Assembly (NCBI RefSeq): GCF_000024405.1
Contig: NC_013517.1
Span: 2,170,001 to 2,234,000 of the forward strand
Direction: 5' to 3'
DNA from: Sebaldella termitidis ATCC 33386
Lineage (GTDB): Bacteria > Fusobacteriota > Fusobacteriia > Fusobacteriales > Leptotrichiaceae
DNA: 64,000 bases
Shown: one piece after another, positions 5,654-61,235 of the stretch
How positions within the stretch are numbered: position 1 is the stretch's first letter
Layout of the letters: the number at the start of each line of letters is the position of its first letter
The notes under the pieces: generated by a model
The model's input: only the letters and a program-made list of their open reading frames with translations
What the model was told of the DNA's origin: nothing
Database searches by the model: none
Program-made: the position numbers and the translations under genes

Positions 5654-5667
5654 ATTGTCTCCCAGTA

Positions 5668-6330: not shown

Positions 6331-6332
6331 AC

Positions 6333-7846: not shown

Positions 7847-7859
7847 AAAAGTACCTCCT

Positions 7860-10817: not shown

Positions 10818-10819
10818 GC

Positions 10820-11236: not shown

Positions 11237-11279
11237 ATTTCCAAAACGGTTTAATGAAAAAATAAAAAGGAGAGTAATC

Positions 11280-11525
11280 ATGAGTAGATATTTTGATACT
11301 GTGAATTTTTTAGTAGAAAACCTGGTTGAAGATAAAAGTTCTTTTCACCTTGAGAGCAATGAAAAAGGGAAAAGCATATTTATTAAGATAATAGTAGATG
11401 AGACAAATATGGGTAAATTAATAGGAAAAAACGGAAGAATTATTACATCTATAAGAACGCTTATCTCTTCAATTGCCAAAAAAGAAAATAAAATAGTAAA
11501 AATAGAAATAAAAAAAGCCGGATAG
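11280..11525 (+). CDS. khpA: KH-domain RNA-binding protein KhpA
   Basis: An 81-residue single type-II KH domain with the GxxG loop inside MGKLIGKNGRIITSIRTLISS. KhpA binds RNA broadly and in Firmicutes affects cell elongation and division, often upstream of rimM and trmD as here. The ATG at 11280 follows AAAGGAGAG; the longer reading frame starting inside the thioesterase gene is spurious. Confidence 0.88.
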   Translation: MSRYFDTVNFLVENLVEDKSSFHLESNEKGKSIFIKIIVDETNMGKLIGKNGRIITSIRTLISSIAKKENKIVKIEIKKAG

Positions 11526-11547
11526 GCTGTTTTACCGAAAGGATGTT

Positions 11548-12051
11548 ATGGAATTAGTAAATATCGGGACAATAACAGGGACTCATCATTTGAACGGAGC
11601 AGTAAAAGTCACGTCAATATTTCAGGATACTGATGTGATAATATCGGAAAAGGTGCTGCTGGAAAAGAATAATGACAAGAAGCTCTGTACTGTCAAATCA
11701 GTAAAAAGAATAAATAATAAAAAGCTTATAGTGGAATTTTCCGAAATAAGCAACATAAATGATGCCAAAAGTCTAAACGGATATCAGGTAAAAATTCGAA
11801 GAGATCTTCTGCCGGAAAAGACGGAAGAAGATTTTTATTATAATGATCTGCTGGGAATGAAAGTCTTTGAAAAAGAGGAATATCTCGGAGATATTTTAGA
11901 TACTATGGAAACTGCGGCTCACGATATTTTAGTAGTGGTAAACAGTGACGGCAGGGAGATACTTGTGCCGATGGTTGATATTTTTGTGAAAAAGATAGAT
12001 TTTGAAGCGGGAAAAATAGAAGTAGAATTAATAGAAGGAATGAAAGAATGA
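11548..12051 (+). CDS. rimM: 16S rRNA processing protein RimM
   Basis: A 167-residue ribosome maturation factor for the 30S head that binds ribosomal protein uS19. It begins VNIGTITGTHHLNGAVKV, the RimM N-terminal barrel, and has the PRC-barrel half from about DFYYNDLLGMKVFEKEEYLG, ending in LVPMVDIFVKKID. It overlaps trmD by 4 bases. Confidence 0.92.
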   Translation: MELVNIGTITGTHHLNGAVKVTSIFQDTDVIISEKVLLEKNNDKKLCTVKSVKRINNKKLIVEFSEISNINDAKSLNGYQVKIRRDLLPEKTEEDFYYNDLLGMKVFEKEEYLGDILDTMETAAHDILVVVNSDGREILVPMVDIFVKKIDFEAGKIEVELIEGMKE

Positions 12052-12788
12052 AATTTACTGTATTAACTTTATTTCCTGAGATATTCGAGCTGTATCTGAA
12101 TCAGACGATCATACAGAGAGCTGTGGATATGGGAATTGTAACTTATGAAATCGTAAATATCAGGGAATTCAGTGGAAATAAACACGGGCAGGTAGATGAC
12201 ACCCCATTCGGCGGCGGTGCAGGAATGGTCTTAAAACCTGAACCTTACTGGAATTATTTTAAGATAAAAAATGCGGAAAATCCCAAAAAGCCTTTTGTTA
12301 TTTTTGTTACCCCTCAGGGAATACCTGCAAACCAAAATATAATAAGCGATATTGCCGAAAAAGAAGATGTGGTGCTGATATCCGGAAGATATGAAGGACT
12401 GGATCAAAGGGTAATTGATAATTTTGTGGATATGGAGGTTTCTATAGGAGACTTTGTTTTGAGCAGCGGCGATCTGCCGGTACTTTGTCTTATGGATTCG
12501 GTAATACGGATAAAAGACGGAGTCATAAAAAAAGAATCTTTTGAAACAGATTCATTTTATAATGGTCTTCTTGGTTTTCCCCAGTATACCAAACCGGCTG
12601 TAATAGAAGGTGTAGAGGTTCCGGAAGTACTGACATCCGGACACCATAAAAAAATAGATGAATACAGACTTCTCGAATCATTGAAAAAAACCTGTAAAAA
12701 CCGTCCGGATCTTTTGGAAAAGAAAATTAAGGAAGATGAAAATTTTCGGGCAGTATGGGAAAAATATAAAAAGGAGATAGAATTATGA
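12048..12788 (+). CDS. trmD: tRNA (guanine37-N1)-methyltransferase
   Basis: A 246-residue SPOUT enzyme that makes m1G37 and prevents frameshifting. Motifs: FTVLTLFPEIFELYL, DDTPFGGGAGMVLKPEP, LISGRYEGLDQRV and EVSIGDFVLSSGDLPV (trefoil knot), SGHHKKIDEYR at the C-terminal domain. It starts inside the rimM stop (ATGA) and overlaps the next gene by 4 bases. Confidence 0.95.
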   Translation: MKFTVLTLFPEIFELYLNQTIIQRAVDMGIVTYEIVNIREFSGNKHGQVDDTPFGGGAGMVLKPEPYWNYFKIKNAENPKKPFVIFVTPQGIPANQNIISDIAEKEDVVLISGRYEGLDQRVIDNFVDMEVSIGDFVLSSGDLPVLCLMDSVIRIKDGVIKKESFETDSFYNGLLGFPQYTKPAVIEGVEVPEVLTSGHHKKIDEYRLLESLKKTCKNRPDLLEKKIKEDENFRAVWEKYKKEIEL

Positions 12789-13306
12789 TATATTCATTGG
12801 GAGAAAAAATGCCAAAAGTGGATAAGGATACTTATGTGGCAGAGTCAGCCGCAGTAATAGGCGACGTAGAGCTTGCAGACGGTGTAAATATATGGTTTGG
12901 TGCTGTCTTAAGAGGAGATCTCGAAAAAATAAGCATTGGTTCAGGGAGTAATGTTCAGGATAATTCGACAATACATACTGATTTTGGTATACCATGCAGA
13001 ATCGGGAAAAATGTTACAGTGGGACATAATGTTATTCTTCACAGCTGTGATATTGGTGATAATGTTATAGTAGGAATGGGAAGTACGGTATTAAACGGCG
13101 CAAAAGTAGGAACAAACTGCCTTATAGGAGCAAATTCCCTTGTTACACATAAGCTTCCGCATGAAGACGGGGTTCTCATAATGGGACAGCCTGCCAAAGT
13201 AATAAGAAAACTAACAGAAGATGAAATAAAGCATATTTTTGAGAATGCAGATCATTATGTGAAAAACGGAAGATACTTTAAAGAAAATCTAAAGGAGATC
13301 AAATGA
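12785..13306 (+). CDS. Gamma-carbonic-anhydrase-like hexapeptide-repeat protein
   Basis: A 173-residue left-handed beta-helix protein of the YrdA/PaaY/CaiE type. Hexapeptide repeats run from VAESAAVIGDVELADGVNIW to VGTNCLIGANSLV; likely zinc ligands are the histidines in IHTDFG, VGHNVI and ILHSCDIG. The motif NIWFGAVLRGDL is typical. These proteins bind zinc and some hydrate CO2, while others have unknown roles. The ATG overlaps the trmD stop. Confidence 0.88.
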   Translation: MIYSLGEKMPKVDKDTYVAESAAVIGDVELADGVNIWFGAVLRGDLEKISIGSGSNVQDNSTIHTDFGIPCRIGKNVTVGHNVILHSCDIGDNVIVGMGSTVLNGAKVGTNCLIGANSLVTHKLPHEDGVLIMGQPAKVIRKLTEDEIKHIFENADHYVKNGRYFKENLKEIK

Positions 13307-13866
13307 GGGAAAAGGTATATGTAGGTTTGGTACATTATCCTGTGTATAATAAAAATAACGATATTGTGGCAACATCAGTTACAAATTTTGATATACACGA
13401 TATATCAAGAACATGCCGCACATATGATATAGAAAATTATTTTATAATAACTCCGCTTGATGCACAGAAAGAGCTGACAGGAAGAATAATAGGATTCTGG
13501 CAGGAAGGCTGTGGTATAGAGTTTAACAAAAACAGAAATGAAGCATTTGAGCATACACGGCTTATGGATTCCATAGAAGACTGCATAAAAAAAATCACAG
13601 AAAAAGAAGGGAAAGAACCGAGAATAATAACAACATCTGCAAAAACCTTTCCCAATTCAGTATCTTACAAGGAATTAAGCAGTGAAATATACGATGATGA
13701 AAATCCTTATTTTCTTCTTTTCGGAACCGGATGGGGTCTGACAGATGAAATAATGGAAATGTCATATAAAATACTTAATCCTATAAGGGGAAAGACAGAA
13801 TATAATCACCTTTCAGTAAGAAGTGCTGTTTCAATTATACTGGACAGACTGTTTGGCGATAACTGA
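13303..13866 (+). CDS. Putative SPOUT-type RNA methyltransferase
   Basis: A 187-residue protein resembling the Pfam RNA methyltransferase family PF09936. It opens with VYVGLVHYPVYNKNNDIVATSVTNFDIHDISR and carries FLLFGTGWGLTDEI, a glycine-rich knot loop near residue 145, followed by NHLSVRSAVSIILDRLFG, which resembles the cofactor-binding end of SPOUT enzymes. The target RNA is unknown. Overlapping the previous gene, it continues the trmD operon. Confidence 0.75.
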   Translation: MREKVYVGLVHYPVYNKNNDIVATSVTNFDIHDISRTCRTYDIENYFIITPLDAQKELTGRIIGFWQEGCGIEFNKNRNEAFEHTRLMDSIEDCIKKITEKEGKEPRIITTSAKTFPNSVSYKELSSEIYDDENPYFLLFGTGWGLTDEIMEMSYKILNPIRGKTEYNHLSVRSAVSIILDRLFGDN

Positions 13867-13900
13867 TATTTTGCTGGATATTAGGAAGGGAGGGACATTA

Positions 13901-14683
13901 GTGGATGGATATGTAAGAAATATTATATTAAACGAGCTGAAAGAACTTGAAAAAAAAGAAAATATAAAAATACTTTTTGCTGTGGAATCAGGGAGCAGAG
14001 CATGGGGCTTTGAATCTAAAGACAGCGATTATGATGTTCGTTTTGTATACGTAAGACCTCTTGAATGGTATATGTCAATAAGCAAAAGAAAAAATACATT
14101 AGAAGTTATGATAAATGAAGATTTGGATTTCGCAGGCTGGGATCTGAATAAAGCTGTCGAGCTGCTGGCTAAAAGCAACCCGCCTTTGGGGGAATGGCTG
14201 AATTCCAGTATTGTTTATACAGAAAAGGATAATATTATTGCTGAGTTTGATAAGCTTTTTGATAAATATCTCAGAGAAAACGCCTTAGTGTATCATTATT
14301 TGAGCATGGCTTCCAAAGATATGGAAACTCTCCGTGAAAAAAGAGAAATAAAACTAAAAAAATATTTTTATATGTTAAGATCATTACTGGCATCAAAATG
14401 GGTAATGCTGTATCACGAAAAGCCCCCTATACTTTTGAGCGAGCTTTTGACACTTGTAAAGAATGAAGCAATTCAAAGAGAAGTGGATAAACTTCTGGAA
14501 ATAAAGAAAGCAGGAGACGAAAGTACTAAGATAGTGGGAAATGAAATAATTAATGAGTTTATTTTTGATACAAAAAAAGAAGTAGAAAAAATGGTGAAAG
14601 AAATTCCGAATTCTAAAAATACCGATCTGAAATTTCTGGATAAGTTTTTCCTTGATAAAGTTCTTTATTATGAAAAAATATAA
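13901..14683 (+). CDS. Nucleotidyltransferase-superfamily protein (PF10127-like)
   Basis: A 260-residue protein of the Pol-beta-like superfamily. Near the N terminus it has FAVESGSRAWGFESKDSDYD, matching the GSRAWG...DSDYDVRF signature with the two metal-binding Asp. The rest is helical. I start it at GTG 13901, which follows GGGAGGGA; the longer ORF from 13823 has no ribosome site. Known members are poorly characterised; relatives transfer nucleotides to RNA, proteins or small molecules. It is the last gene of the trmD operon. Confidence 0.75.
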   Translation: MDGYVRNIILNELKELEKKENIKILFAVESGSRAWGFESKDSDYDVRFVYVRPLEWYMSISKRKNTLEVMINEDLDFAGWDLNKAVELLAKSNPPLGEWLNSSIVYTEKDNIIAEFDKLFDKYLRENALVYHYLSMASKDMETLREKREIKLKKYFYMLRSLLASKWVMLYHEKPPILLSELLTLVKNEAIQREVDKLLEIKKAGDESTKIVGNEIINEFIFDTKKEVEKMVKEIPNSKNTDLKFLDKFFLDKVLYYEKI

Positions 14684-15082
14684 TTTTAAGCGGGGTTGTG
14701 GTATTAAGCAATTCCGTTTTTTGTTAATTTTTTGAAAACAGAGTATATTTTTTAATAAAATAAGAAAGTCAGTTTTTTAAATTTTAATATACAATTATAC
14801 TCTTTGCTCCGCAAGAGAAAAAATACATAAAAAACATATTTTGAAGGAAAAAAATATAAAAAAAGCTTTGCCCTAATATTGACAATTAGAAACTTCAAGC
14901 TAAAATTAAGTATATGCGTAAAAAAATAAAGTCTTAAAAAAAGAATTTGAGAAATATTTTTTATATCAATTCCTAAATTCTAATATTGACAGTAAATTTT
15001 TTTATACAAAAAAATGAAACGTTTTAAAAATTTTAGTTTAATATGAGTTTTATTTCAAAATAAATAATTACAGGAGGGCAGC
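14684..15082. other. AT-rich upstream region of the dha operon
   Basis: No gene. It contains two copies of CTAATATTGACA, at 14873-14884 and 14980-14991, 107 bases apart. The first forms part of a possible promoter (TTGACA 14879-14884, 16-base spacer, TAAAAT 14901-14906). The second has no clear -10. Confidence 0.45.
14879..14906 (+). promoter_or_regulatory. Possible promoter for dhaKLM-glpK
   Basis: TTGACA and TAAAAT separated by 16 bases, about 175 bases before dhaK. Confidence 0.45.
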
Positions 15083-16072
15083 ATGAAAAAATTGATCAAC
15101 AAGACAGAGAATATTGTGAGAGAAATGCTGGAGGGACTGGCTGAAGCTTATCCGGATATTCTTGAAAAATTACCGGACTTTAATATTATCAAAAGAAAAA
15201 CTGTAAGCAGCAAGGTAAATCTCGTGAGCGGAGGGGGAAGCGGTCATGAGCCTGCACACGCAGGATACGTAGGGTATGGAATGCTGGACGCGGCAGTAGC
15301 CGGGGAAGTATTTACATCACCGACACCGGATCAGGTGCTAGAGGGAATAAAAGCTGTAAAATCAGAAAAAGGAGTGCTTCTTATAATAAAAAATTACAGC
15401 GGAGACATTATGAACTTTGAAATGGCAGCAGATATGGCAGAAATGGAAGATATAAAAGTGGAAAAGGTAGTAGTAAATGATGATATAGCGATGGAGGACA
15501 GTACATATACCATAGGAAGAAGAGGGGTGGCGGGAACAGTGCTGGTTCACAAGATCAGCGGTGCAGCGGCCGAAGACGGTCTTGAGCTTGATGAAGTAAA
15601 AAGAATTGCAGAAAAAACAATAAAAAACGTAAAAACCCTGGGTATGTCTCTGGGACCGTGCACAGTACCTGCAAGCGGCAAAGAAAGCTTTCATCTGGAG
15701 GATGATGAAATAGAAATGGGACTGGGAATTCATGGCGAACCCGGTATACATAAGGGAAAATTAAAAACAGCAGATGAACATGTGGAATATATGATGGAAA
15801 AACTTCTCTCCGAGCAGAAATTTTCTGAAAATGAAAAGACTGCAGTATTAATAAACGGATTAGGTGCAACACCGCTGATGGAACTTTATATAATAAACAG
15901 AAAAGTTTCTGAAATTTTGAAAAATAAAAAAATAGAAATATCAGAAACTATAGTAGGTAATTATATGACTTCTCTTGAAATGCCGGGCTTCTCCATAACA
16001 TTGCTAAAGCTTGATGAAGAACTGGAAAAATATCTGAAATTTAAGGCCAGAACACCGGCATATAAAAACTGA
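15083..16072 (+). CDS. dhaK: Dihydroxyacetone kinase subunit DhaK
   Basis: The 329-residue substrate-binding subunit of PTS-dependent dihydroxyacetone kinase. It shows NLVSGGGSGHEPAHAGYVG and the catalytic His near residue 217 in GLGIHGEPG, which binds dihydroxyacetone as a hemiaminal. DhaL-ADP phosphorylates the bound substrate; DhaM recharges the nucleotide. First gene of a four-gene operon, with AGGAGGGCAGC before the ATG. Confidence 0.95.
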   Translation: MKKLINKTENIVREMLEGLAEAYPDILEKLPDFNIIKRKTVSSKVNLVSGGGSGHEPAHAGYVGYGMLDAAVAGEVFTSPTPDQVLEGIKAVKSEKGVLLIIKNYSGDIMNFEMAADMAEMEDIKVEKVVVNDDIAMEDSTYTIGRRGVAGTVLVHKISGAAAEDGLELDEVKRIAEKTIKNVKTLGMSLGPCTVPASGKESFHLEDDEIEMGLGIHGEPGIHKGKLKTADEHVEYMMEKLLSEQKFSENEKTAVLINGLGATPLMELYIINRKVSEILKNKKIEISETIVGNYMTSLEMPGFSITLLKLDEELEKYLKFKARTPAYKN

Positions 16073-16082
16073 GGTGAAATGT

Positions 16083-16721
16083 ATGAAAAATGACAGAGTA
16101 ATAGATATATTAGATGAAATAGCCAAAATAGTAATAGCACATGAAGAGGAGCTTACGGATCTGGACAGGGCAATAGGCGACGGAGACCACGGACTAAATC
16201 TGAAAAGAGGATTTGATGCTGTAATGGCAAAAGTGGATTATTTCCGGGAAAATGAAGATAATATGGATTTATCAAAGCTTTTGAATGAAACAGCAATGAC
16301 TCTGCTGTCAACGGTAGGCGGTGCTTCCGGCCCGCTTTATGCTACGGCACTTATGAAAATGGCAAAGGCTTTTAGGGATAAAAACGAGGGCGATATAGAT
16401 ATTGATGATATAGAGTATGCCGTAAAGGAGGCTGTAGAAGGGATAAAGCAGAGAGGGAATGCTTCAGTCGGTGATAAGACTATGGTAGATACAATTGAAC
16501 CGTTTTATGCCGCATTCAAAAAGGCCGTACAGGAGGAAAAAAATCTCAAAAACAGCTTTGCAGAAGGACTGGAAGCAGCTGAAAAAGGTATGTTATCAAC
16601 AAAAGATATTCAGGCGAAACGGGGAAGGGCGAGTTATCTGGGTGAAAGAAGCATAGGAACTGTAGATCCGGGTGCGCGTTCCAGTTATCTTATATTAAAA
16701 ACAATTTATAATCAAATTTAG
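16083..16721 (+). CDS. dhaL: Dihydroxyacetone kinase subunit DhaL
   Basis: The 212-residue ADP-binding subunit. LDRAIGDGDHGLNLKRGF carries the Asp cluster that holds two magnesium ions, and VGGASGPLYAT and GRASYLGERSIGTVDPGA are typical of the nucleotide-binding helical barrel. I chose the ATG at 16083 after GAGGTGAA; an upstream GTG at 16074 lies inside that ribosome site. Confidence 0.93.
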   Translation: MKNDRVIDILDEIAKIVIAHEEELTDLDRAIGDGDHGLNLKRGFDAVMAKVDYFRENEDNMDLSKLLNETAMTLLSTVGGASGPLYATALMKMAKAFRDKNEGDIDIDDIEYAVKEAVEGIKQRGNASVGDKTMVDTIEPFYAAFKKAVQEEKNLKNSFAEGLEAAEKGMLSTKDIQAKRGRASYLGERSIGTVDPGARSSYLILKTIYNQI

Positions 16722-16730
16722 GAGGAAAAA

Positions 16731-18661
<1,931 letters not shown>

Positions 18662-50663: not shown

Positions 50664-50678
50664 TTGCAGCATCTGCAC
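50664..50678. promoter_or_regulatory. Candidate RpiR operator before lacA
   Basis: TTGCA, five bases, TGCAC. It lies immediately upstream of the -35 box. The same architecture (TTGCA-N5-TGCAA) occurs before the rpiR gene at 51954-51968. Confidence 0.55.
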
Positions 50679-50706
50679 GTGACAAATAAAAAAATCAGGC
50701 TATAAT
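50679..50706 (+). promoter_or_regulatory. Promoter of lacAB
   Basis: GTGACA (50679-50684), 16 bases, TATAAT (50701-50706). Confidence 0.65.
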
Positions 50707-50773
50707 AGTCATATAATCGATATAACATTTTGTAACAAAAAGTAACTAAAAATAAAAAACGGAGGTTGATCAA

Positions 50774-51196
50774 ATGAAAATAGGTATCGGGAGTTCTGCC
50801 GGGGGGACTCATCTTAAGGAAAAAGTCATGAAGTATCTGCAGGAAAGCGGGTATGAAGTCGAAGATTATAAAGAGGAGGGAAATGATGTATTTAATATTT
50901 CATGCAGTATAGCCGAAGCAGTAATAGAGGGCAGCATAGAAAAGGGAATAATAATAGATGATTACGGAATTGTACCATTTATGGTATGTACAAAGTATAA
51001 AAAAATAGTTTGTGCACAGACAGCAGATGAACATTCGGCTAAAATGACAAGAGATCATAATAATACAAGCATAATTTCAATAGGATATGAAATTACCGGA
51101 GAAAATCTGGCAAAAAGCATATGCGGGATATTTGCCAATTCTGATTATTCCGGAGGAAGACATCAGGTAAGAGTAGATATGCTGGATAAAATGTAA
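50774..51196 (+). CDS. lacA: Galactose-6-phosphate isomerase subunit LacA
   Basis: A 140-residue RpiB/LacA-fold protein: IGIGSSAGGTHLKEKVMKYL at the N terminus and CAQTADEHSAKMTRDHNNTSIISIGYEITG with the LacA-type loop. With LacB it converts galactose 6-phosphate to tagatose 6-phosphate. ACGGAGGTTG precedes the ATG. LacC and LacD (kinase and aldolase) are not in the window, so the lower pathway must be encoded elsewhere. Confidence 0.85.
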   Translation: MKIGIGSSAGGTHLKEKVMKYLQESGYEVEDYKEEGNDVFNISCSIAEAVIEGSIEKGIIIDDYGIVPFMVCTKYKKIVCAQTADEHSAKMTRDHNNTSIISIGYEITGENLAKSICGIFANSDYSGGRHQVRVDMLDKM

Positions 51197-51227
51197 AACA
51201 AAAATTCTTATAAACAGGAGGAAGAAA

Positions 51228-51743
51228 ATGAAAATATCAATAGGCTGTGATCATATTGTAACAGAGATAAAAAATGAAATGGTTAAATATCTGAAAGGAA
51301 AAGGGCATGAGGTATTTGACGAGGGAACCTTCGATAATGAAAGAACACATTATCCAATATACGGAAGAAAAGTGGGATTAAGAGTTTCGAGCAAAGAAGC
51401 TGATTTCGGGATAGTAATATGCGGTACAGGAGTAGGAATTTCAAATGCTGCAAGTAAGGTTCCGGGAATACGTCTGTCTTTGGTAAGAGATGTTCTTACA
51501 GCAAAAACGGCAAGAGAAAAATTAGATGCAAATGTACTGGGATTAGGGGGAAGAATAACAGGTACAGGACTTATGCAAAATATAACAGATGAATTTCTCG
51601 CGGCACAGTATGAAAAGACAGAAGAAAATGAAAAATTAATAGAAAGAATTAATAATTTGAAAAAAGAAAATGAGGAAATAAAAAAAGAAGAATTTTTTGA
51701 TGAGTTTATAAAAAAATGGGATTTGGGTTATTATCATGATTAA
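51228..51743 (+). CDS. lacB: Galactose-6-phosphate isomerase subunit LacB
   Basis: A 171-residue RpiB-fold protein. ISIGCDHIVTEIKNEMVKYL gives the substrate-binding start, GIVICGTGVGISNAASKVPGIR carries the cysteine-glycine catalytic loop, and RDVLTAKTAREKLDANVLGLGGR is typical. LacB has a longer C-terminal helix than RpiB, and length and sequence match LacB (FIKKWDLGYYHD at the end). It lies 31 bases after lacA. Confidence 0.88.
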   Translation: MKISIGCDHIVTEIKNEMVKYLKGKGHEVFDEGTFDNERTHYPIYGRKVGLRVSSKEADFGIVICGTGVGISNAASKVPGIRLSLVRDVLTAKTAREKLDANVLGLGGRITGTGLMQNITDEFLAAQYEKTEENEKLIERINNLKKENEEIKKEEFFDEFIKKWDLGYYHD

Positions 51744-51784
51744 TCAGGCTTATAATAAAAAATAAAATATATTGCCAAAGCAAT

Positions 51785-51826
51785 ACAGAAACTGCATTAT
51801 GTTAAAAAAAATACTGCAGTTTCTGT
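51785..51826 (+). other. Hairpin after lacB
   Basis: ACAGAAACTGCA and its complement form a perfect 12-bp stem with an 18-base loop. No T run follows, so it may be a transcript-end or stability element rather than a canonical terminator. Confidence 0.45.
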
Positions 51827-51953
51827 AGAGAAAATATCAGAAAGCAAATATATTGAAAAATAAAAAATTATTTTACAAGGATATAAAAATAACAGCAATA
51901 TTTATTTTTATAGTTATGTTTTGATTAAAAAAACATTTTTGATTTTGGAAAAC

Positions 51954-51968
51954 TTGCAAAAGCTGCAA
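51954..51968. promoter_or_regulatory. Candidate RpiR operator before the regulator gene
   Basis: TTGCA, five bases, TGCAA, 23 bases before a TATAAT box at 51991-51996. Same architecture as the element at 50664-50678. Confidence 0.55.
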
Positions 51969-52022
51969 TATTTTATAGTTCTTTTCAGGGTATAATTTAT
52001 TAATTAAAAAAAGGAGGACTCT

Positions 52023-52859
52023 ATGGACTTAGAAAGCAATGATTCCCGAATGAGCCTTATAAATATACTTGAAGCGAATCTGGAAAAGGGAGACAGCAAA
52101 GCAGTAATAGCAAGAGTACTTTTAAGAAATTTTTATAATATTCCAAATATGACACAGGAGCATATAGCAAAATTAAGTTTTGTTGCTCCGTCAACAATAG
52201 GAAGGTTTTGCAAGAAAATCGGATATAAGAATTTTATCGAATTCAGAAAATATGTTAATGAATACATAGAAAAATTAAAGATGGACAGTATGCTCAGTGA
52301 TGCATTTTACGAAGTTGCAGACAAAGATGTTTTTAGTTTTTCAGATGAAATTTTCAGTTCGACAATGAAAAGTCTGTATAATGCGCAAAAATCAATAGAT
52401 ATCGAAACTATAGACAAAGTAACCGATTTGATAATAAGTACAGAGAAAATAGCGGTCTTCGGACTTCCTATATCACAGATAATGGGTAAAGACTTTCAGT
52501 ATCATATGTTAAGACACGGGAAATATATGGAAGCATTTACTGAATTTAAAAAACAGGTAGAGCTTGCAGAATCACTTGATGAAAATTCACTTGCGATTTT
52601 TATATCTAAAACCGGCGGAGAAAGAAAATTCATATGTGATATTTTGAATATAGTAAAAAAGTGTAAAGCCAGAACTGTGCTGATAACATATAAACAGGAC
52701 AGCTATATGGCTCAAAACAGCGATTTTCTTATAAATATTTTTTATGAGGAAAACGGACTAATACCAAGAGGGCTGATATCAGGAATACTTTATACAGGTG
52801 TATTTAATCTGATAATTATGAATTATTTGAAAAAAATCAAGAGCAAAGGCGGGAAGTAA
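52023..52859 (+). CDS. RpiR-family transcriptional regulator
   Basis: A 278-residue regulator: N-terminal HTH_6 domain (about 1-80) with MTQEHIAKLSFVAPSTIGRFCKKIGYKNFIEFR, and a C-terminal SIS sugar-phosphate domain (about 120-260) with EKIAVFGLPISQIMGKDFQ and LAIFISKTGGERKF. RpiR proteins sense a phosphosugar. AAAGGAGGACTCT precedes the ATG. The next gene's ATG directly follows the stop. The likely ligand is a galactose-type sugar phosphate. Confidence 0.88.
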   Translation: MDLESNDSRMSLINILEANLEKGDSKAVIARVLLRNFYNIPNMTQEHIAKLSFVAPSTIGRFCKKIGYKNFIEFRKYVNEYIEKLKMDSMLSDAFYEVADKDVFSFSDEIFSSTMKSLYNAQKSIDIETIDKVTDLIISTEKIAVFGLPISQIMGKDFQYHMLRHGKYMEAFTEFKKQVELAESLDENSLAIFISKTGGERKFICDILNIVKKCKARTVLITYKQDSYMAQNSDFLINIFYEENGLIPRGLISGILYTGVFNLIIMNYLKKIKSKGGK

Positions 52860-54644
52860 ATGAAAGTTGTAATGTTAATGTTTGATACATTAAACAGGAG
52901 AAGTCTGTCAGCTTACGGGAATAAATGGATAAAAACACCTAATTTTGACAGGCTGGCAGAAAAAACAGTAATGTTCAATAATTTTTTTTCGGGAAGTCTG
53001 CCGTGTATGCCTGCAAGGAGGGAACTGCATACAGGAAGATACAATTTTTTACACAGAAGCTGGGGACCTATGGAGCCGTTTGATTTTTCCATGCCGGAAA
53101 CATTAAAAAATAACGGGATATATACACATCTGGTGACAGATCATTCACATTATTTTGAAGACGGAGGTGCTACCTATCATAACAGATATAATACCTGGGA
53201 AGGCTTTCGGGGGCAGGAGGGCGACCGCTGGAAAGGAAAGATAGGGGATATTGATATTCCGGAACAGATAGAAACCGGAAAAAAAGGAATATCTTTTAAG
53301 CAAAACTGGATAAACAGAAATTATCAGAAAAATGAAGAAGAATTTTCGGGAACAAAGGTAATAAATGCAGGAATAGAATTTATTACAGAGAACATAAATG
53401 AAGATAAGTGGTTTTTGCAGATAGAATGCTTTGATCCTCATGAGCCGTTTTATTCACCGGAAAAATATAAAGAGCTGTATAAGCATGAATATAACGGAAA
53501 ATTTTTTGACTGGCCTTCATATAAACCGGTAACTGAAAGTGAAGAAGAAATAGAGCATCTTAATTATGAGTATGCTGCACTGCTCAGCATGTGTGATGCA
53601 CAGCTTGGCAAGGTTCTGGATACTATGGATAAATACAATATGTGGAAAGATACAATGCTGATAGTAAATACAGATCACGGGTTCTTACTTGGAGAGCATG
53701 GCTGGCTGGGAAAAAATATGGAGCCGGTATATAACGAAGTAGCGCATATTCCGTTTTTTATCTGGGATCCGAGATTTGAAATAAAAAATGAAACAAGAAA
53801 TTCACTGGCTCAGACAATAGATCTTCCGGCAACAATATTAGAATATTTTAATGTAGAACTTCCTGAAACAATGCAGGGAAAACCGCTGAGAAAGGCTATA
53901 GAAAAAAAGGAGGATATCAGAAAAGCAGGTTTGTTCGGCATATACGGTGGGCATATAAATGTAGTAAATAATGAGTATATTTATATGAGAGCTCCGATAT
54001 GTCCTGAAAACACTCCTTTGTATGAATATACCCTAATGCCGGCAAAAATGAGAGGATTTTTCAGCAAGAAACAGCTGGAAAATACAGAATTAGTGAATGG
54101 ATTTAAGTTTACAAACGGAATAAGCGTTCTAAAAACCTTCGGAGAACTGGAATCCTCGCTTTACAGATTTGGAAATAAATTATTTCACAGAAAAAATGAT
54201 CCGCTTCAGGAAAAAAATCTGGATAACATAGAGGCAGAGGAAAAGCTGACAGAAATAATGCGGGAGCTGATGCTCGAATCAGAAGCTCCGGATGAGCAGT
54301 ATGAGAGAATAGGAATCTATAAAGACAGAAAAATTACCGCAGAAGAATTAACGGTTCAGAAAGAAGCACGAATAAAACGTGAAAAATCAGGTATAAATGA
54401 AAATATAATTATTTCTGATAAAGTTCTTGCCCAGATAAACATAATCAAAGGAATTATAAGAAATAAAGAAGACAGGAAATATTTCCTGAAGGAAATAAAC
54501 AGCATGTATGAAGAAAAAAAAGTGATGGAACTGAAAGAGGAGGATATATTAAAGATTGCAGACAGTGTAACCGGGAAGCTGAATCTCGGGGATAAAAAGA
54601 AAGTTTTAATGGATAGTATAAAATATGCCGATGTAAAAGAATAA
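52860..54644 (+). CDS. Cytoplasmic sulfatase, Cys-type (CMPAR)
   Basis: A 594-residue alkaline-phosphatase-fold sulfatase. The FGly-precursor motif is Cys49 in SGSLPCMPARRELHTGR (C-x-P-x-R). FDTLNRRSLSAYG at the start and NTDHGFLLGEHGWLGKN supply metal ligands. There is no signal peptide: the metal-binding strand begins at residue 3, so the enzyme is predicted cytosolic. A long C-terminal extension (about 480-594) is helical and unlike standard sulfatases. The gene abuts rpiR. It probably removes sulfate from the sugar phosphate produced by the PTS. Confidence 0.88.
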   Translation: MKVVMLMFDTLNRRSLSAYGNKWIKTPNFDRLAEKTVMFNNFFSGSLPCMPARRELHTGRYNFLHRSWGPMEPFDFSMPETLKNNGIYTHLVTDHSHYFEDGGATYHNRYNTWEGFRGQEGDRWKGKIGDIDIPEQIETGKKGISFKQNWINRNYQKNEEEFSGTKVINAGIEFITENINEDKWFLQIECFDPHEPFYSPEKYKELYKHEYNGKFFDWPSYKPVTESEEEIEHLNYEYAALLSMCDAQLGKVLDTMDKYNMWKDTMLIVNTDHGFLLGEHGWLGKNMEPVYNEVAHIPFFIWDPRFEIKNETRNSLAQTIDLPATILEYFNVELPETMQGKPLRKAIEKKEDIRKAGLFGIYGGHINVVNNEYIYMRAPICPENTPLYEYTLMPAKMRGFFSKKQLENTELVNGFKFTNGISVLKTFGELESSLYRFGNKLFHRKNDPLQEKNLDNIEAEEKLTEIMRELMLESEAPDEQYERIGIYKDRKITAEELTVQKEARIKREKSGINENIIISDKVLAQINIIKGIIRNKEDRKYFLKEINSMYEEKKVMELKEEDILKIADSVTGKLNLGDKKKVLMDSIKYADVKE

Positions 54645-54684
54645 TAAGTTATAAAAAAGTTTTAAATATAACAAAGGAGGAAAA

Positions 54685-55113
54685 ATGAAAGAGATACCTG
54701 TGATTTTGATCAGTCACGGTCACTATGCCAAATATGCGCTGGAAAGTGCAGAGATGATAATAGGGAAACAGGAAAACTGCGAGGTAATTTCAGTAACTGA
54801 AGATAAAGACCTCGATAGTGTGACAAAAGAGCTGGAAGAAGTGTATAAAAAACTCAAAAATGAAAAAGGAGCAGTAATACTGACAGATATAAGAGGAGGT
54901 ACACCCAGCAATGCCGCTGCAAATCTTCTGGTAAGAGAAGATGATATTCTTGCGTTAAGCGGATATAATATGCCTTTGCTTTTGGAACTGTTTACTAACA
55001 GAGATCTGGAAATGGAAGATTTAAAAGAAGGATTATATGAGGCTTTTAGAGAATCATTAGTAGATCTTAGAGCAGAAACAGCCGGATTATGCGAAGAAGA
55101 AATAGAACTATAA
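54685..55113 (+). CDS. PTS mannose-family EIIA
   Basis: A 142-residue EIIA domain. The expected phosphorylated histidine is His11 in VILISHGHYAKYALESAEMI; ILTDIRGGTPSNAAANLL is the family block. It accepts phosphate from HPr and passes it to EIIB. Separate IIA and IIB genes resemble the Aga (N-acetylgalactosamine) arrangement rather than fused ManX. AAAGGAGGAAAA precedes the ATG. Confidence 0.9.
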   Translation: MKEIPVILISHGHYAKYALESAEMIIGKQENCEVISVTEDKDLDSVTKELEEVYKKLKNEKGAVILTDIRGGTPSNAAANLLVREDDILALSGYNMPLLLELFTNRDLEMEDLKEGLYEAFRESLVDLRAETAGLCEEEIEL

Positions 55114-55134
55114 ATTATAAATCAGGAGGAAAAG

Positions 55135-55611
55135 ATGGAAAATATAGAATTAGTAAGAATTGATGACAGAATGCTCCATGGACAGGTAGTATCCACATGG
55201 CTGAAAGATTACAGCATAGAACAGGTTCTGATAATTAACGACAAGGCTGCAAATGATCCTATTCAGAAATCTGTAGCCGGACTTGCGGCTCCAAAGGAAG
55301 TAAAAGTACATTTATTCGGGGTAGAGCAGTTCATAGATATTTTGAAAAAAACACCTATTAAAAGAAAAACAATGCTTATATTTACTACATCTACAGATGT
55401 TTTGAAGCTGGTGGAGAACGGACTGGATATAAAAGAAGTAAATGTAGGAGGAATGAGATATAACGAAAACAGAAAAAGGCTTTCCAAAGCTGTATCTGTA
55501 ACACCGGAAGAGGAAGAAGCATTCAAAAAGCTTATAGAAAAAGATATAAAAGTATTTATACAGATGATACCAAAATCAGACGAAAGTTTGATGAAAAATT
55601 TATTGAAATAA
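55135..55611 (+). CDS. PTS mannose-family EIIB
   Basis: A 158-residue EIIB. His15 in LVRIDDRMLHGQVVSTWLK is the phosphorylation site, and IKEVNVGGMRYNENRKRLSKAVSV matches the sorbose/galactosamine subgroup. It transfers phosphate to the incoming sugar. Ribosome site TCAGGAGGAAAAG. Confidence 0.9.
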   Translation: MENIELVRIDDRMLHGQVVSTWLKDYSIEQVLIINDKAANDPIQKSVAGLAAPKEVKVHLFGVEQFIDILKKTPIKRKTMLIFTTSTDVLKLVENGLDIKEVNVGGMRYNENRKRLSKAVSVTPEEEEAFKKLIEKDIKVFIQMIPKSDESLMKNLLK

Positions 55612-55635
55612 AAATTTGACTGGAGGAGAAATTCT

Positions 55636-56430
55636 ATGTTAATAAAAGCAATATTAGTAGCAATTTGGGCTGGTTTTTGTGTGTGGGATCAGTACGGACC
55701 TCACTTGGGATTCAGAAAACCCCTGCTTGCAGGAGTAGTAACCGGATTAATACTGGGAGACTTAAAACAAGGATTGATAATAGGAGGAACACTTGAATTA
55801 ATGTGGCTTGGTATGAATAATGTCGGTGCTTATATTCCTCCTGATGTAATAAGCGGAAGTGTGGTAGGAGTGGCAATAGGAATTCTTACCGGGCAGGGAG
55901 TAGCTGCAGGAGTAGCTGTGGCAATTCCGGTAGCAATGCTTATACAGCAGGTGTCTATGTTTTTACAGACCTTTAATATTACTCTTGTGCACAGAGCGGA
56001 TAAAATAATATTAAGCGGTGATTACAGAAAGATAGACAAGCTGCAGTATATAGGTATGGGATTATGGTTTCTTTCAAGATTTATACCTGTGTTTCTGGCA
56101 GTTTATCTTGGTACTGCAAGTATAGAATTCATAACAAATAAAATACCTGAGAGCATATTCACAGGACTGTCGGTAGCATCAAAAATAATACCTGCAGTAG
56201 GGATGGCAATGCTTTTGACAATGATGATGAAAAAATATATGTGGATGTTCCTTTTATTAGGATTTGTAATAGCATCATATTTTCAGATACCTCTGCTTGG
56301 TCTTGCTTTGCTGGGACTGGTATTCGCAGGAATATATGATCTGATTATCACAAGCAGGGAAAAAAGCATAAAAACAGAAACAAGCAGCACTATAACAGAA
56401 TATGATTCAGAAGAGGAGTTGGATTTATAA
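55636..56430 (+). CDS. PTS mannose-family EIIC
   Basis: A 264-residue membrane component with GFRKPLLAGVVTGLILGDLKQGLIIGG style start, then GTLELMWLGMNNVGAYIPPDVISG, the EIIC signature. Six or more helices are seen. With EIID it forms the channel. The gene ends TAATGG, overlapping the EIID ATG by one base. Confidence 0.9.
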   Translation: MLIKAILVAIWAGFCVWDQYGPHLGFRKPLLAGVVTGLILGDLKQGLIIGGTLELMWLGMNNVGAYIPPDVISGSVVGVAIGILTGQGVAAGVAVAIPVAMLIQQVSMFLQTFNITLVHRADKIILSGDYRKIDKLQYIGMGLWFLSRFIPVFLAVYLGTASIEFITNKIPESIFTGLSVASKIIPAVGMAMLLTMMMKKYMWMFLLLGFVIASYFQIPLLGLALLGLVFAGIYDLIITSREKSIKTETSSTITEYDSEEELDL

Positions 56431-57242
56431 TGGAAAATAAAATAACAAAAAGTGATTTGAATAAAGTTTTCTGGCGTACACAACTTATCCAGATGTCTCA
56501 TAACTATGAGAGAATGCAGAGTCTGGGTTCTCTATACTGCCTGAGTCCTATATTAAAAAGAATATATAAAGATGCACCCAAGGAGCAGAGAGTAGAATCT
56601 ATGAGAAGACATCTGGAATATTTCAACACACATCCGATGCTGGCTTTTTCTATATTTGGGATAGTAGCCGCAATGGAGGAAAATACCACAGAAGAAGAAA
56701 AAGAAGGGGTAATAGCTGTAAAAACCGGACTTATGGGACCGCTGGCAGGTCTCGGAGACAGTCTTCTGAACTTCACATGGATGCCGATATGCGGAAGTAT
56801 AGGTGCGGCTCTTGCTGTACAGGGTAATATTCTGGGACCTATACTCATGTTTCTTATGATAAACGGATTGTACACGCCTTTAAAATATTACGGGTTATTT
56901 TACGGATATAAAAAAGGGGAAAGTGTTATAAATGAAAAGGATGAAGGAACACGGGTTCTGGACAGACTTTCAGGAATGGCAAATGTACTGGGAGTAATAG
57001 TAATAGGAGGACTTATTGCCGGGAATGTAAAGGTAAAGATCGGAACAGAATTTCAAATAGGGGATCAGGTTCTGGTTCTTCAGGAGATGCTGGATAAGGT
57101 AATGCCAAATTTACTGCCTGTGCTTGTAACAGTAGCATGTTATTATCTGCTGAAGAAATCAAACGGAAAATATGCAGTGCGGATTATTTTCGGAGTGCTG
57201 ATAGTCTCGGTAATACTGTCAATGTTCGGAATTTTGGTATAA
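56430..57242 (+). CDS. PTS mannose-family EIID
   Basis: A 270-residue EIID: ITKSDLNKVFWRTQLIQMSH followed by NYERMQSLGSLYCLSPILKR and HPMLAFSIFGIVAAMEE, and C-terminal helices. It determines specificity together with EIIC. The four PTS parts are consecutive between two sulfatase genes, linking transport to desulfation. Direct evidence for the sugar is lacking. Confidence 0.9.
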   Translation: MENKITKSDLNKVFWRTQLIQMSHNYERMQSLGSLYCLSPILKRIYKDAPKEQRVESMRRHLEYFNTHPMLAFSIFGIVAAMEENTTEEEKEGVIAVKTGLMGPLAGLGDSLLNFTWMPICGSIGAALAVQGNILGPILMFLMINGLYTPLKYYGLFYGYKKGESVINEKDEGTRVLDRLSGMANVLGVIVIGGLIAGNVKVKIGTEFQIGDQVLVLQEMLDKVMPNLLPVLVTVACYYLLKKSNGKYAVRIIFGVLIVSVILSMFGILV

Positions 57243-57269
57243 AGAATTTTGCATACAAAAGGAGAAAAA

Positions 57270-58712
57270 ATGAAACCAAACATAATATTAATAATGGTAG
57301 ATCAGATGAGGGGAGACTGTTTGGGGATAAACGGACATCCGGTGGTAGAGACGCCAAATCTGGATATGATGGCAGGCGAAGGATATAATTTTAAGAATGC
57401 CTATTCGGCAGTACCAAGCTGTATTGCAGCAAGAGCAGCACTTATGACAGGAATGAATCAGAGGAATCATGGAAGAGTGGGCTATAAAAACAATGTAACG
57501 TGGAATTATAAAAATATGCTTGCAGAAACTTTTGCTAAAAATGATTACTATACACAATGTGTGGGAAAAATGCATGTACATCCTGAAAGAAGCCTGTGCG
57601 GTTTTCACAATATTCTTCTGCATAACGGATACTCAAATAACAGCAGAAACAGCAGAAAAACATATGAATCAGTATTTTATAATGTAGATGATTATTTATA
57701 CTGGCTTAAAGAGAAGAAGGGAATTTCGGCAGAGCTTACAGACAGCGGACTTGACTGTAATTCATGGGTAGCAAGATCCTGGCCTCATGAAGAACAGTAT
57801 CATCCTACTAACTGGGTAGTCAATGAAGGAATAAATTTTCTGAGAAGAAGGGATAAAAGAAAAAATTTCTTTTTGAAGCTGTCCTTTATCAGACCGCATT
57901 CACCGCTTGATCCGCCTGAATATTACTATAATATGTATATTAACAGAGAGATTGATAATCCGATACCTGCAGAAGAAGAGAATATAAAGGAAGCTTATAA
58001 TATCAATGCAGCAGAGGGACAAATATCAAAAGAAGCAATGAAAAGAGCAAAGGTAGCGTATTATGGAAGCATAACACATATTGACCATCAGATAGGACGA
58101 TTTTTGATGGTGTTGAAAGAAAATGACCTGCTAAAAGAAAGTATAGTGCTCTTTGTTTCAGATCACGGAGATTTGATGGGAGATCACGGTTTATTCAGAA
58201 AATCCATGCCGTATCAGGGGAGCATACATGTTCCGTTTATAGTTTATGATCCGGGGAATTTTCTTAACGGCGGAGTGATGAGAGAACCGGATGAGCTCGT
58301 AGAGCTGAGAGATATCATGCCGTCACTGCTGGATTTCTGTAATATTGAAATTCCTGATACTGTAGACGGAAAAAGCATAAAAGAAATAATAGAAAATAAG
58401 CCGGTAAAATGGCGTGAATATCTGCACGGCGAGCATTTTAACCATGAAAAATCAAATCAGTATATAGTTGATAAAAAAATGAAATATATGTGGTTTTCTC
58501 AGACAGGAGCGGAAAAGCTTTTTGATCTTGAAAATGATCCGAAGGAGCTGAATGATCTCTCAGAAAAAGCGGAATATACAGATGTAATAGAAAAATACAG
58601 AAAAATTCTGGTTAAGGAATTGGAAGGCAGGGAAGAAGGATATTCGGACGGTATAAATCTTATTGCAGGAAAAGAAGCCAGAGAGTGCCTGAGCCATATT
58701 CTGAATGAGTGA
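57270..58712 (+). CDS. Second cytoplasmic sulfatase (CIAAR motif)
   Basis: A 480-residue sulfatase. [16 protein letters not shown] gives the first metal residues (Asp11), Cys51 in [15 protein letters not shown] is the FGly precursor, and [19 protein letters not shown] the C-terminal metal site. The motif has Ala in place of the usual Pro (C-x-A-x-R), a variant compatible with anaerobic maturases. It lacks a signal peptide and is therefore likely cytosolic. ATG at 57270 follows AAAGGAG. It is separate in sequence from the first sulfatase, suggesting a different sulfate position. Confidence 0.88.
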
Positions 58713-58756
58713 TATTTTATAAGTCAGCTTTACATTTTACTATATAAAATCTAAAT

Positions 58757-58788
58757 CCGGCCGGGGTATAGAGATATATTCCGGCCGG
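58757..58788 (+). other. GC-rich hairpin between sulfatase and maturase genes
   Basis: CCGGCCGG occurs twice; with G-U pairs the arms extend to about 14 bp. No T run follows. In this AT-rich genome it stands out and may process, protect or attenuate the transcript. Confidence 0.5.
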
Positions 58789-58837
58789 CTGAATAAAACT
58801 ATATTGTTTAAGCCAAAACAATGACTGGGGAAAAATT

Positions 58838-59947
58838 ATGATAAGAAATTTACAGTTAATGATAAAACCGGCTTCGAGCCGGTGCAATATAAGCTGTGGA
58901 TATTGTTTTTACAATGAAACGGCTTGTAACAGAGAAGTAAGTGATTACGGCTTAATGAAAGAAGAAACCATCAGGGAAATAATCAGAAAAGCATCGGAAT
59001 TCTGCGGAAACGGAACATGTGCCATTGGCTTTCAGGGAGGGGAACCAATGCTCGCAGGGATAGATTTTTATAAAAGCATATTGAAATATATAAAAAATGA
59101 AAAAATAAATACAAATTTTATTTTTACTATTCAGACAAACGGAACTTTAATAAATGAGGAGTGGGCGGAATTTTTCAGAAGAAACAATTTTCTCACAGGA
59201 ATATCACTGGACGGAACAGAAAGAATTCATAACAATAACAGGAAAAAACATAACGGAGAGGGAACATTTCAGGAGGTAATGAAATCAGTCGGATTGCTGG
59301 AAAAATACGGGGCAGAATTTAATATATTGACTGTGGTAACAAAAGAACTGGCTGATAGTATAGAGGAAGTATATAAATTTTATAAAGAAAATAGTTTTAA
59401 TTATTTGCAGTTTATTCCGTATATAGAAACAGAACAGGATATGAGAGCCGGAAAATATATGCTGACATCAGAAGTTTATACAGACTTTCTAAACAGACTC
59501 TTTGATTTGTGGTATGAAGATCTGATAAATGACAGGGGTGTCAGCATCAGATATTTTGACAATATAATAGGACTGTTCCTTGGGTATCCGTATGAAGCCT
59601 GTGACATGAGAGGTGTATGCAGCTGTCAGAATATAATAGAAAGTGACGGAAGCATATATCCCTGTGATTTTTATGTATATGACAGATATAAGCTCGGAAA
59701 TATAACTGAAAATACTTTTGAGGAAATATTGCAGAGCAAAAAAACAGAGGAATTTATAATGGAATCACTAAAAAGTAATACAGAATGCAGAGATTGTGAA
59801 TACAGAGTCTTATGCAGCAACGGATGTAAGAAACATCGTGACAGCAACAATAAAAACAGATTTTGCAGTACATATAAGGAATTTTTCAGCAAACATGCAG
59901 ATAAATTTAGTGAAATCAGAAATTTATTATTAAAAGAAAATTTTTAA
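58838..59947 (+). CDS. Anaerobic sulfatase-maturating radical SAM enzyme
   Basis: A 369-residue radical SAM/SPASM protein. Cys16, Cys20 and Cys23 (CNISCGYCFY) bind the SAM cluster; GFQGGEPMLAG and TIQTNGTLI follow; the SPASM part holds CDMRGVCSCQN, YPCDFYVYDRY and CRDCEYRVLCSNGC for two auxiliary clusters. It oxidises the active-site Cys of sulfatases to formylglycine without oxygen. Both sulfatases upstream carry Cys at that site, matching it. Confidence 0.9.
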   Translation: MIRNLQLMIKPASSRCNISCGYCFYNETACNREVSDYGLMKEETIREIIRKASEFCGNGTCAIGFQGGEPMLAGIDFYKSILKYIKNEKINTNFIFTIQTNGTLINEEWAEFFRRNNFLTGISLDGTERIHNNNRKKHNGEGTFQEVMKSVGLLEKYGAEFNILTVVTKELADSIEEVYKFYKENSFNYLQFIPYIETEQDMRAGKYMLTSEVYTDFLNRLFDLWYEDLINDRGVSIRYFDNIIGLFLGYPYEACDMRGVCSCQNIIESDGSIYPCDFYVYDRYKLGNITENTFEEILQSKKTEEFIMESLKSNTECRDCEYRVLCSNGCKKHRDSNNKNRFCSTYKEFFSKHADKFSEIRNLLLKENF

Positions 59948-59989
59948 AAATTAGCTCAGATCAAAGTGTAAATAAAGGAGAAAAAGCAT

Positions 59990-60730
59990 ATGCTGTATTT
60001 TATAATCAGTTTATTTTCAACAGTAACAGGGGCAATAGTAGGGATAGGCGGCGGGCTTATAATCAGACCGCTTTTGGCAAATATAGGCGTGGCAAAAAGT
60101 CTGGCTTCATTTACGTCAGCAGTTGTAGTGCTGTCAATGGCAATGGTAACACTGGCTACATTTATCATGAACGGCGTAAAAATAAATATCAGAAAAATTC
60201 TTCTTCTTGGAATAGGAAGTGTCATAGGAGGTTTTCTGGGCGGGACTTTGCTAAAGCATGTAAATGAAAATTTTATAGATATAGCATATATTTTTATGTT
60301 ACTGCTGGTGCTCTTTTCTGTAGTTTTCAGAAAAAAAATTCCTGAGATAAATATAAAAAATCCTTTGGCAGAAATAACAATAGGGGTTTTAACTGGAGGT
60401 TTATCAGGGCTTTTTGGTATAGGGGGAGGCCCGTTTCAGGTAACTGCATTAATTGTGTTTTTTGGCATGGATCCCAGAGAAGCAGCAGTAGACAGTATAT
60501 TTATTACATTTTTGACTACACTGAGTTCCCTTACAAAGTATACAATAAATGGCTATATGGATTTTTCACTGGCTTTATATATGATTCCTGCTGCTGTTAT
60601 TGGAGGATATACTGGCGGAAAGATAAACAGAAAGATCAGCAGCAAAAAAGTGTCGCTGATATTTGTAATATCGATATTATTCATAATAATGATGCAAAGT
60701 ATAATGATAATTTTTAAGTATACAAATTAA
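59990..60730 (+). CDS. TauE/SafE-family exporter
   Basis: A 246-residue TSUP-family membrane protein with two homologous halves: TGAIVGIGGGLIIRPLL at the N terminus and LSGLFGIGGGPFQVTALIVFFGM in the second half. TSUP proteins move sulfite, sulfonates or related anions. After the maturase gene it probably exports sulfate released by the sulfatases; that is inference. AAAGGAGAAAAAG precedes the ATG. Confidence 0.85.
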   Translation: MLYFIISLFSTVTGAIVGIGGGLIIRPLLANIGVAKSLASFTSAVVVLSMAMVTLATFIMNGVKINIRKILLLGIGSVIGGFLGGTLLKHVNENFIDIAYIFMLLLVLFSVVFRKKIPEINIKNPLAEITIGVLTGGLSGLFGIGGGPFQVTALIVFFGMDPREAAVDSIFITFLTTLSSLTKYTINGYMDFSLALYMIPAAVIGGYTGGKINRKISSKKVSLIFVISILFIIMMQSIMIIFKYTN

Positions 60731-60746
60731 AGAATTTCCGGTAACA

Positions 60747-61235
60747 TCATTTTTTTGCAGTACTATTTATCTGTTTATGAACCCAAAAAACTGATTCTAT
60801 CTGTATCCGCATTAGTTCAGTGAAATTATCCGCTATTTTTTCGAAGGGGATATCTTCAGGCGGATAGTCATGATAAAATTTTAGAATTTTTCCGTTATTC
60901 ATATCGATAACAGCATTATCCCCGTCGCCAAAACCTCCGATGGGGAATGGAGACAGACATTCAGACATATTATAGCCTAAATTTATATATTCATTCCATT
61001 TCTTCATAAAGTGTGAATAGCAGCGATTAAGGTCAGTGATGCCATAAATATAAGGATCACTGAAATTACAGCTGCCAAAATTATTTAACAGCCATCTGTA
61101 ATCAAGGGGAATATTTACCTGAAACTTAGTCTCAAAATCTTGTAAATTTGATTCATTTTCTTTATTATCAGAGGATATTCCTTCCATAAAGTATGCTTTT
61201 TCAAGTAAGCTGTATATTTTTTCTATATTAGTCAT
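60747..61235 (-). CDS. SMI1/KNR4-family protein
   Basis: A 162-residue protein of the SMI1/KNR4 (SUKH) fold: LQDFETKFQVNIPLDYRWLLNNFG, then DPYIYGITDLNR and PFPIGGFGDGDNAVIDMNNG, FYHDYPPED. Bacterial members are often immunity proteins against polymorphic toxins. No toxin gene is adjacent. It is convergent to the TauE/SafE gene. Confidence 0.85.
   Translation of the reverse strand: MTNIEKIYSLLEKAYFMEGISSDNKENESNLQDFETKFQVNIPLDYRWLLNNFGSCNFSDPYIYGITDLNRCYSHFMKKWNEYINLGYNMSECLSPFPIGGFGDGDNAVIDMNNGKILKFYHDYPPEDIPFEKIADNFTELMRIQIESVFWVHKQINSTAKK

Follow-up and report, generated by a model that had tools for sequence, protein, structure and literature searches.

The pneumococcal island SPH1922–1930, reported in 2012, comprises a ROK regulator, a phosphotransferase system (PTS), a sulfatase, a maturase and TauE; its mutants are attenuated in mice, no sulfatase activity was seen on 4-methylumbelliferyl sulfate (4-MU-sulfate), and its substrate was not found (PMC3283741, PMC3302838). 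Cytoplasmic desulfation has been proposed for the glycosaminoglycan (GAG) cluster of Streptobacillus moniliformis, with Smon0126 as the sulfatase (PMC5430744), and in Sebaldella termitidis a duplicated ula regulon has been described, in which a sulfatase was seen as an insertion (PMC3219644). In the present study, we analysed a stretch of 64,000 nucleotides of S. termitidis ATCC 33386 (hereafter the window; C1:2170001–2234000 of a 4.49-Mb genome in three contigs). Flanked by genes for a DNA polymerase III-like protein and formate–tetrahydrofolate ligase, eleven plus-strand genes of the window (50774–60730) encode LacA, LacB, RpiR, the sulfatases SulfA and SulfB, a mannose-family PTS, a sulfatase maturase and TauE. 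We propose, with a probability of roughly 0.6, that these genes form a regulon under RpiR control which allows growth on sulfated galactose or a small sulfated galactoside.

We propose the following scenario. The mannose-family PTS would take up the intact sulfated sugar and phosphorylate it, presumably at C6, and the oxygen-independent maturase would activate SulfA and SulfB in the cytoplasm. With the phosphate on C6, the sulfates must sit at other carbons, from which SulfA and SulfB would strip them, acting on two regio-isomers or on one disulfated sugar; the same argument on sulfate position has been made for PTS entry of GAG disaccharides (PMC5430744). The remaining galactose 6-phosphate would be converted by LacAB to tagatose 6-phosphate and passed on to kinase and LacD-type aldolase activities encoded elsewhere in the genome, and sulfate would leave through TauE. 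Four features make import with phosphorylation, followed by desulfation and exit as tagatose 6-phosphate, the best interpretation: cytoplasmic sulfatases, a complete PTS, an operator common to both gene groups and a LacAB that is a near-copy of the pair in the lactose operon; that import precedes desulfation, that the sugar is galactose, that C6 is phosphorylated and that sulfate is the cargo of TauE are what we infer from these features. A preliminary description of the locus had outlined this pathway. Its core agrees with the cytoplasmic sulfatases, the complete PTS and the operator common to lacAB and the sulfatase–PTS operon, whereas its novelty was overstated, a PTS–sulfatase island having been described (PMC3283741, PMC3302838) and cytoplasmic desulfation proposed (PMC5430744) earlier.

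Gene content, cytoplasmic location of the sulfatases, intact catalytic motifs, conservation, a common and unique operator, near-copy LacAB and galactose enzymes near SulfB relatives can be read from the sequence itself. Profile matches recovered all genes named in the preliminary description, on the plus strand and where it had placed them, including a complete set of mannose-family enzyme II (EII) components (EIIA, EIIB, EIIC and EIID, 54685–57242). LacB (276 bits; NCBIfam equivalog cut-off, 234), the maturase (374 bits; TIGR03942 cut-off, 349) and SulfB (748 bits; cut-off of PRK13759, the EfAS-type arylsulfatase model, 481) scored above threshold, LacA fell just under that of its best model, the LacA equivalog (158.5 vs. 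164 bits), and TauE matched PF01925 (E 1e-40). EIIA retains SHGH and EIIB retains RMLHGQ, the histidines of which we take to be the expected phosphorylation sites. No solute-binding protein or other importer was found among the operon genes. The intergenic gaps from rpiR through SulfB measure −1 to 40 bp, followed by gaps of 125 and 42 bp; since 279 bp separate lacB from rpiR, the genes from lacAB to tauE probably form two transcription units with one common operator type. All eleven genes occur in the same order in a second Sebaldella genome (G089; 81–98% identity), and a third (G088) keeps the part from EIIA to TauE, a contig end cutting the block there. Furthermore, five of the six PF00884 genes and three of the five TSUP genes of the S. 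termitidis genome fall within three PTS–sulfatase clusters. Given this conservation and concentration, the grouping of the genes is not due to chance. A second maturase gene lies at C1:430330. Similarity of EIID was also tried as a predictor of a sulfatase link and rejected, the three plasmid loci opened adjoining SIS-domain or uncharacterised genes and not sulfatases.

Both sulfatases are S1 enzymes of the Cys type. SulfA begins with MKVVMLMFD, and in SulfB as in SulfA the first strand and the metal-binding Asp come immediately. Because this Asp is residue 9 or 11 in the two enzymes, no space is left for a signal peptide, and SulfA and SulfB are, as judged from their N-termini, cytoplasmic. 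Upstream of the start, there are no in-frame residues in SulfA and at most nine, polar ones, in SulfB; a secretion signal, which the preliminary description had already found missing, is thus impossible in both, and neither is a secreted or periplasmic sulfatase of the kind used in Bacteroides-type extracytoplasmic systems. An AlphaFold model of SulfA, built from a two-row alignment, was unusable (mean pLDDT 42).

An operator, TTGCA-N4-CTGCA, precedes both lacA and rpiR. Its first base at lacA, 50664, coincides with the start of the region delimited by the preliminary description. In both S. termitidis and G089, TATAAT starts exactly 23 bp past CTGCA at the two sites, and TCAGG-N stands directly before TATAAT at all four copies; the surrounding intergenic DNA diverges between the two genomes, unlike the operator–promoter block. 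About 0.004 matches per genome to TTGCA-N4-CTGCA-N23-TATAAT are expected by chance. The extended pattern AAASTTGCANNNNCTGCAM, derived from the two sites that it then matched, has exactly those two matches in 4.49 Mb, and a reversed control has none. A single RpiR-controlled regulon comprising lacAB and the sulfatase–PTS operon is the best reading of these sites. The centre of the operator precedes the predicted start by approximately 42 bp, a position that suits an activator, and RpiR may act as one. The region between lacB and rpiR (51743–52022) also contains an inverted repeat, CAGAAACTGCA...TGCAGTTTCTG, which lacks a clear T run and is possibly a terminator; a hairpin of other sequence occupies the equivalent place in G089.

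Table 1. Features of the lacAB and sulfatase–PTS locus, with positions in the window
Feature	Position	Strand	Remarks
Operator TTGCA-N4-CTGCA and lacAB promoter	50664..50706	+	GTGACA, 16 bp, TATAAT
lacA, galactose-6-phosphate isomerase subunit gene	50774..51196	+	Best match is the LacA equivalog model
lacB, galactose-6-phosphate isomerase subunit B, 171 aa	51228..51743	+	NCBIfam equivalog
Second operator copy and TATAAT, before rpiR	51954..51996	+	Spacing equal to first copy
rpiR, MurR/RpiR-type regulator with SIS sugar-phosphate domain, 278 aa	52023..52859	+	PF01418, PF01380
SulfA, S1-type sulfatase, 594 aa	52860..54644	+	C-terminal extension; CMPAR at residues 49–53
PTS mannose-family EIIA, 142 aa	54685..55113	+	
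PTS mannose-family EIIB, 158 aa	55135..55611	+	
PTS mannose-family EIIC, 264 aa	55636..56430	+	Top NCBIfam match AgaW, below cut-off
PTS mannose-family EIID, 270 aa	56430..57242	+	
SulfB, EfAS-like sulfatase, 480 aa	57270..58712	+	CIAAR motif
Anaerobic sulfatase maturase, radical SAM/SPASM, 369 aa	58838..59947	+	TIGR03942, above cut-off
TauE/SafE (TSUP) exporter, 246 aa	59990..60730	+	PF01925

Directly downstream, a SUKH-family (SMI1/KNR4) gene (60747–61235, minus strand) likely encodes a protein of the immunity type that has no connection with the cluster.

Galactose 6-phosphate is the known substrate of LacAB. LacA and LacB of the window are 75% and 78% identical, respectively, to their counterparts in the lactose-PTS operon of this genome, deoR-lacA-lacB-lacF-lacE-GH1, whose other products are a regulator of the DeoR type, IIA and IICB of the lactose family, and a GH1 enzyme. 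The nearest solved structure to LacB is LacB 4LFK; RpiB in place of LacAB was ruled out, as the LacA and LacB models and 4LFK score best. LacB was found in 274 plasmid records, mainly enterococcal and lactococcal. The preliminary description had noted the absence of LacC and LacD from the window; homologues are present elsewhere in the genome: a LacD homologue stands alone at C1:4207820 (390 bits vs. a cut-off of 432), and for LacC the score is 263 bits (cut-off, 410). A PfkB kinase and a class II aldolase are encoded within a galactitol-like operon elsewhere.

The neighbours of SulfB relatives bear on the identity of the sugar. In two genomes of the same family (G087 and G093), SulfB relatives with 50–52% identity lie beside genes for a GH112 lacto-N-biose phosphorylase and an ABC transporter; the G093 neighbourhood (L105, G093:C101, 291–16613) further includes a mannose-PTS, a SIS protein and a LacD-family aldolase and looks like a cluster for the use of sulfated galacto-/lacto-N-biose. 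On Enterococcus plasmids, the gene order is GH35 β-galactosidase without a signal, IIB, IIA, IIC, IID and sulfatase, with divergent GntR, SPASM maturase and TauE genes. Because GH112, or GH35 with a mannose-PTS, adjoins its relatives, SulfB itself hints at galactose, independently of LacAB. The same enzymes could also indicate that the PTS imports a sulfated galactose disaccharide (of the sulfated lactose, galacto-N-biose or lacto-N-biose type), which after desulfation would be split by a phospho-glycosidase encoded elsewhere, LacAB taking only the galactose 6-phosphate half. Together with the GH1 enzyme of the lactose-PTS operon, the GH112 phosphorylases and the cytoplasmic GH35 enzyme beside EfAS-type sulfatases agree with such a route; however, no glycosidase or phosphorylase was found in the window cluster, and we regard it as unlikely.

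The sulfatase of Enterococcus faecium DO plasmid 3 (L074, 3775–10446) is identical to the crystallised 'arylsulfatase' EfAS (PDB 9KOQ), and SulfB shares 14 of the 16 pocket residues of EfAS. EfAS cleaves p-nitrophenyl sulfate and was tried for desulfating caerulein and estrone sulfate, in a paper that mentions neither operon nor plasmid context (PMC12421950). These activities would suit sulfatases that scavenge sulfur or detoxify aryl sulfates, their adjacency to a sugar PTS being incidental. However, EfAS turns its substrate over slowly (kcat/Km about 120 per M per s; PMC12421950), its gene lies within a sugar-PTS operon, a sulfate exporter would work against scavenging, and the PTS–sulfatase arrangement is repeated in three clusters of the S. 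termitidis genome and in other phyla, which together make a scavenging or detoxifying role highly improbable.

The second-best solved relative of SulfB is the 3S-GlcNAc sulfatase BT1918 (SulfAtlas S1_46; E 7.5e-88). As BT1918 takes a 3-sulfate off N-acetylglucosamine (GlcNAc), we would guess by analogy, with low confidence, that SulfB removes a 3-sulfate. BT1918, closest to SulfB among sugar sulfatases after EfAS, is GlcNAc-specific, and the EII genes score best or well with N-acetylgalactosamine (GalNAc)/galactosamine (GalN) models (AgaF, AgaW), none of them reaching its cut-off. The substrate might thus be the sulfate of an amino sugar, GalNAc or GlcNAc, with LacAB in the regulon merely since related sugars arrive together. 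The cluster, however, lacks a deacetylase or AgaS-type deaminase/isomerase, and galactose 6-phosphate is the substrate of LacAB, so that we give an amino sugar little chance.

None of the 24 SulfA relatives sampled has a signal, and an importer gene adjoins 23 of them, belonging to mannose-, ascorbate- or glucose-type PTS, tripartite tricarboxylate transporter (TTT), MFS or ABC classes, as assigned by hand from annotations and translations. SulfA and its kin are accordingly best viewed as probable post-import enzymes, since signals are absent and importers nearly always adjacent. On the SulfA tree, the window protein clusters with enterococcal β-glucoside-PTS sulfatases (support 100/98), and the importer class switched at least seven times. 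Since genome G027 has SulfA-like and SulfB-like genes each in its own mannose-PTS operon, either type can probably operate singly, and their co-occurrence in the window operon suggests two sulfate positions. In Escherichia coli, a chromosomal PTS IIC–PTS IIB–sulfatase unit with a SulfA-related sulfatase is present in 552 of 5,426 complete genomes, between rlmC and artJ (L079, 6303–9482). In three further loci (L037, L038 and L039, of G036, G034 and G009), SulfA-type sulfatases adjoin TctA-type tripartite transporter genes, with a maturase nearby in two and a TauE-like gene in two; these may represent an alternative importer for a sulfated compound. A scan of contigs with SulfA gave a single locus, in Edwardsiella.

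Several points weigh against the proposed sulfated-galactose pathway, which is derived from sequence. The LacC homologues fall far under, and the LacD homologue somewhat under, their cut-offs, and the cluster contains no glycoside hydrolase (GH), lyase or porin that would account for the origin of the free sulfated sugar. No SulfA residue distinguishes PTS-linked from other members, leaving a sugar-phosphate substrate without a sequence signature, and SulfA kin also adjoin ascorbate-type and glucose-type PTS, the family not being galactose-specific. In addition, BT1918, the nearest characterised sugar sulfatase, takes 3S-GlcNAc, with the N-acetyl group as an absolute determinant, and not galactose (PMC10154620).

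The two other PTS–sulfatase clusters of the genome differ in content. One (L040, C1:124000–143900; 5401–17104) combines two PTS of the ascorbate type with UlaD/E/F/G homologues, a pair of cytoplasmic Cys-sulfatases and a TauE that shares 70% identity with that of the window; part of the duplicated ula regulon described earlier (PMC3219644) is recognisable here. It possibly serves sulfated ascorbate catabolism, ascorbate 2-sulfate being a guess. The third cluster (L041, C1:1833000–1850000; 5648–12374) encodes a glucose-family-like PTS, a DUF3604 protein, a signal-less CSPSR-type sulfatase, a putative ROK regulator and TauE. It is conceivable, at somewhat less than even odds, that sulfo-sugar phosphates (galactose 3-sulfate 6-phosphate, for example) truly occur as metabolites in the cytoplasm. 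On the same view, S1 sulfatases of the EfAS/SulfB and SulfA types would be a class whose evolution was for action downstream of phosphorylating import, and in fusobacteria, enterococci and enterobacteria this class would have been exchanged between PTS families that handle galactose, ascorbate and glucose-like sugars. In the literature searched, which left out most subscription papers, no description of PTS import of sulfated monosaccharides was found; within the same limits, and hence only weakly, two points appear new: LacAB and a sulfatase–PTS share one operator, a combination that names the likely product, and EfAS is encoded in an operon of this kind. PTS–sulfatase operons, known since 2012, still lack an assigned substrate, and LacAB in the regulon gives a defined downstream sugar that makes the substrate testable. 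The present results also suggest a natural role for EfAS, currently studied as a promiscuous arylsulfatase. If the pathway is true, sulfated sugars of the mucin or algal type freed by others would be consumed by some gut bacteria, which would secrete no sulfatase and keep the desulfated sugar to themselves.

Among known systems, the pneumococcal island shares with the window operon a complete PTS, a sulfatase, a sulfatase-modifying enzyme, a TauE-family exporter and a local regulator in about 10 kb; however, it has a lactose/chitobiose-family PTS, a ROK-type regulator, a single sulfatase and no LacAB. With its mannose-family EII and RpiR, the window operon works like the pneumococcal type but is outside that subtype. 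The enterococcal EfAS plasmid operon has a mannose-family PTS, a signal-less sulfatase 47% identical to SulfB, a SPASM maturase and TauE, and differs in its GH35 β-galactosidase and GntR regulator and in the absence of LacAB and SulfA from the examined stretch; the Enterococcus faecalis version adds a secreted β-helix protein. The Streptobacillus moniliformis cluster, from the same bacterial family, likewise involves entry of an intact sulfated sugar and proposed cytoplasmic desulfation, but uses an ABC importer, entry without phosphorylation, GAG disaccharides, lyases and UGL. In the LacABCD tagatose 6-phosphate pathway, PTS entry also yields galactose 6-phosphate, which then passes to LacAB, whereas the window operon would need prior desulfation, has a mannose-family PTS and has LacC and LacD encoded outside the operon. 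Bacteroides sulfated-glycan loci also employ S1 sulfatases requiring formylglycine (FGly) maturation, yet they desulfate in the periplasm or outside the cell before uptake, while the window operon would do so after import.

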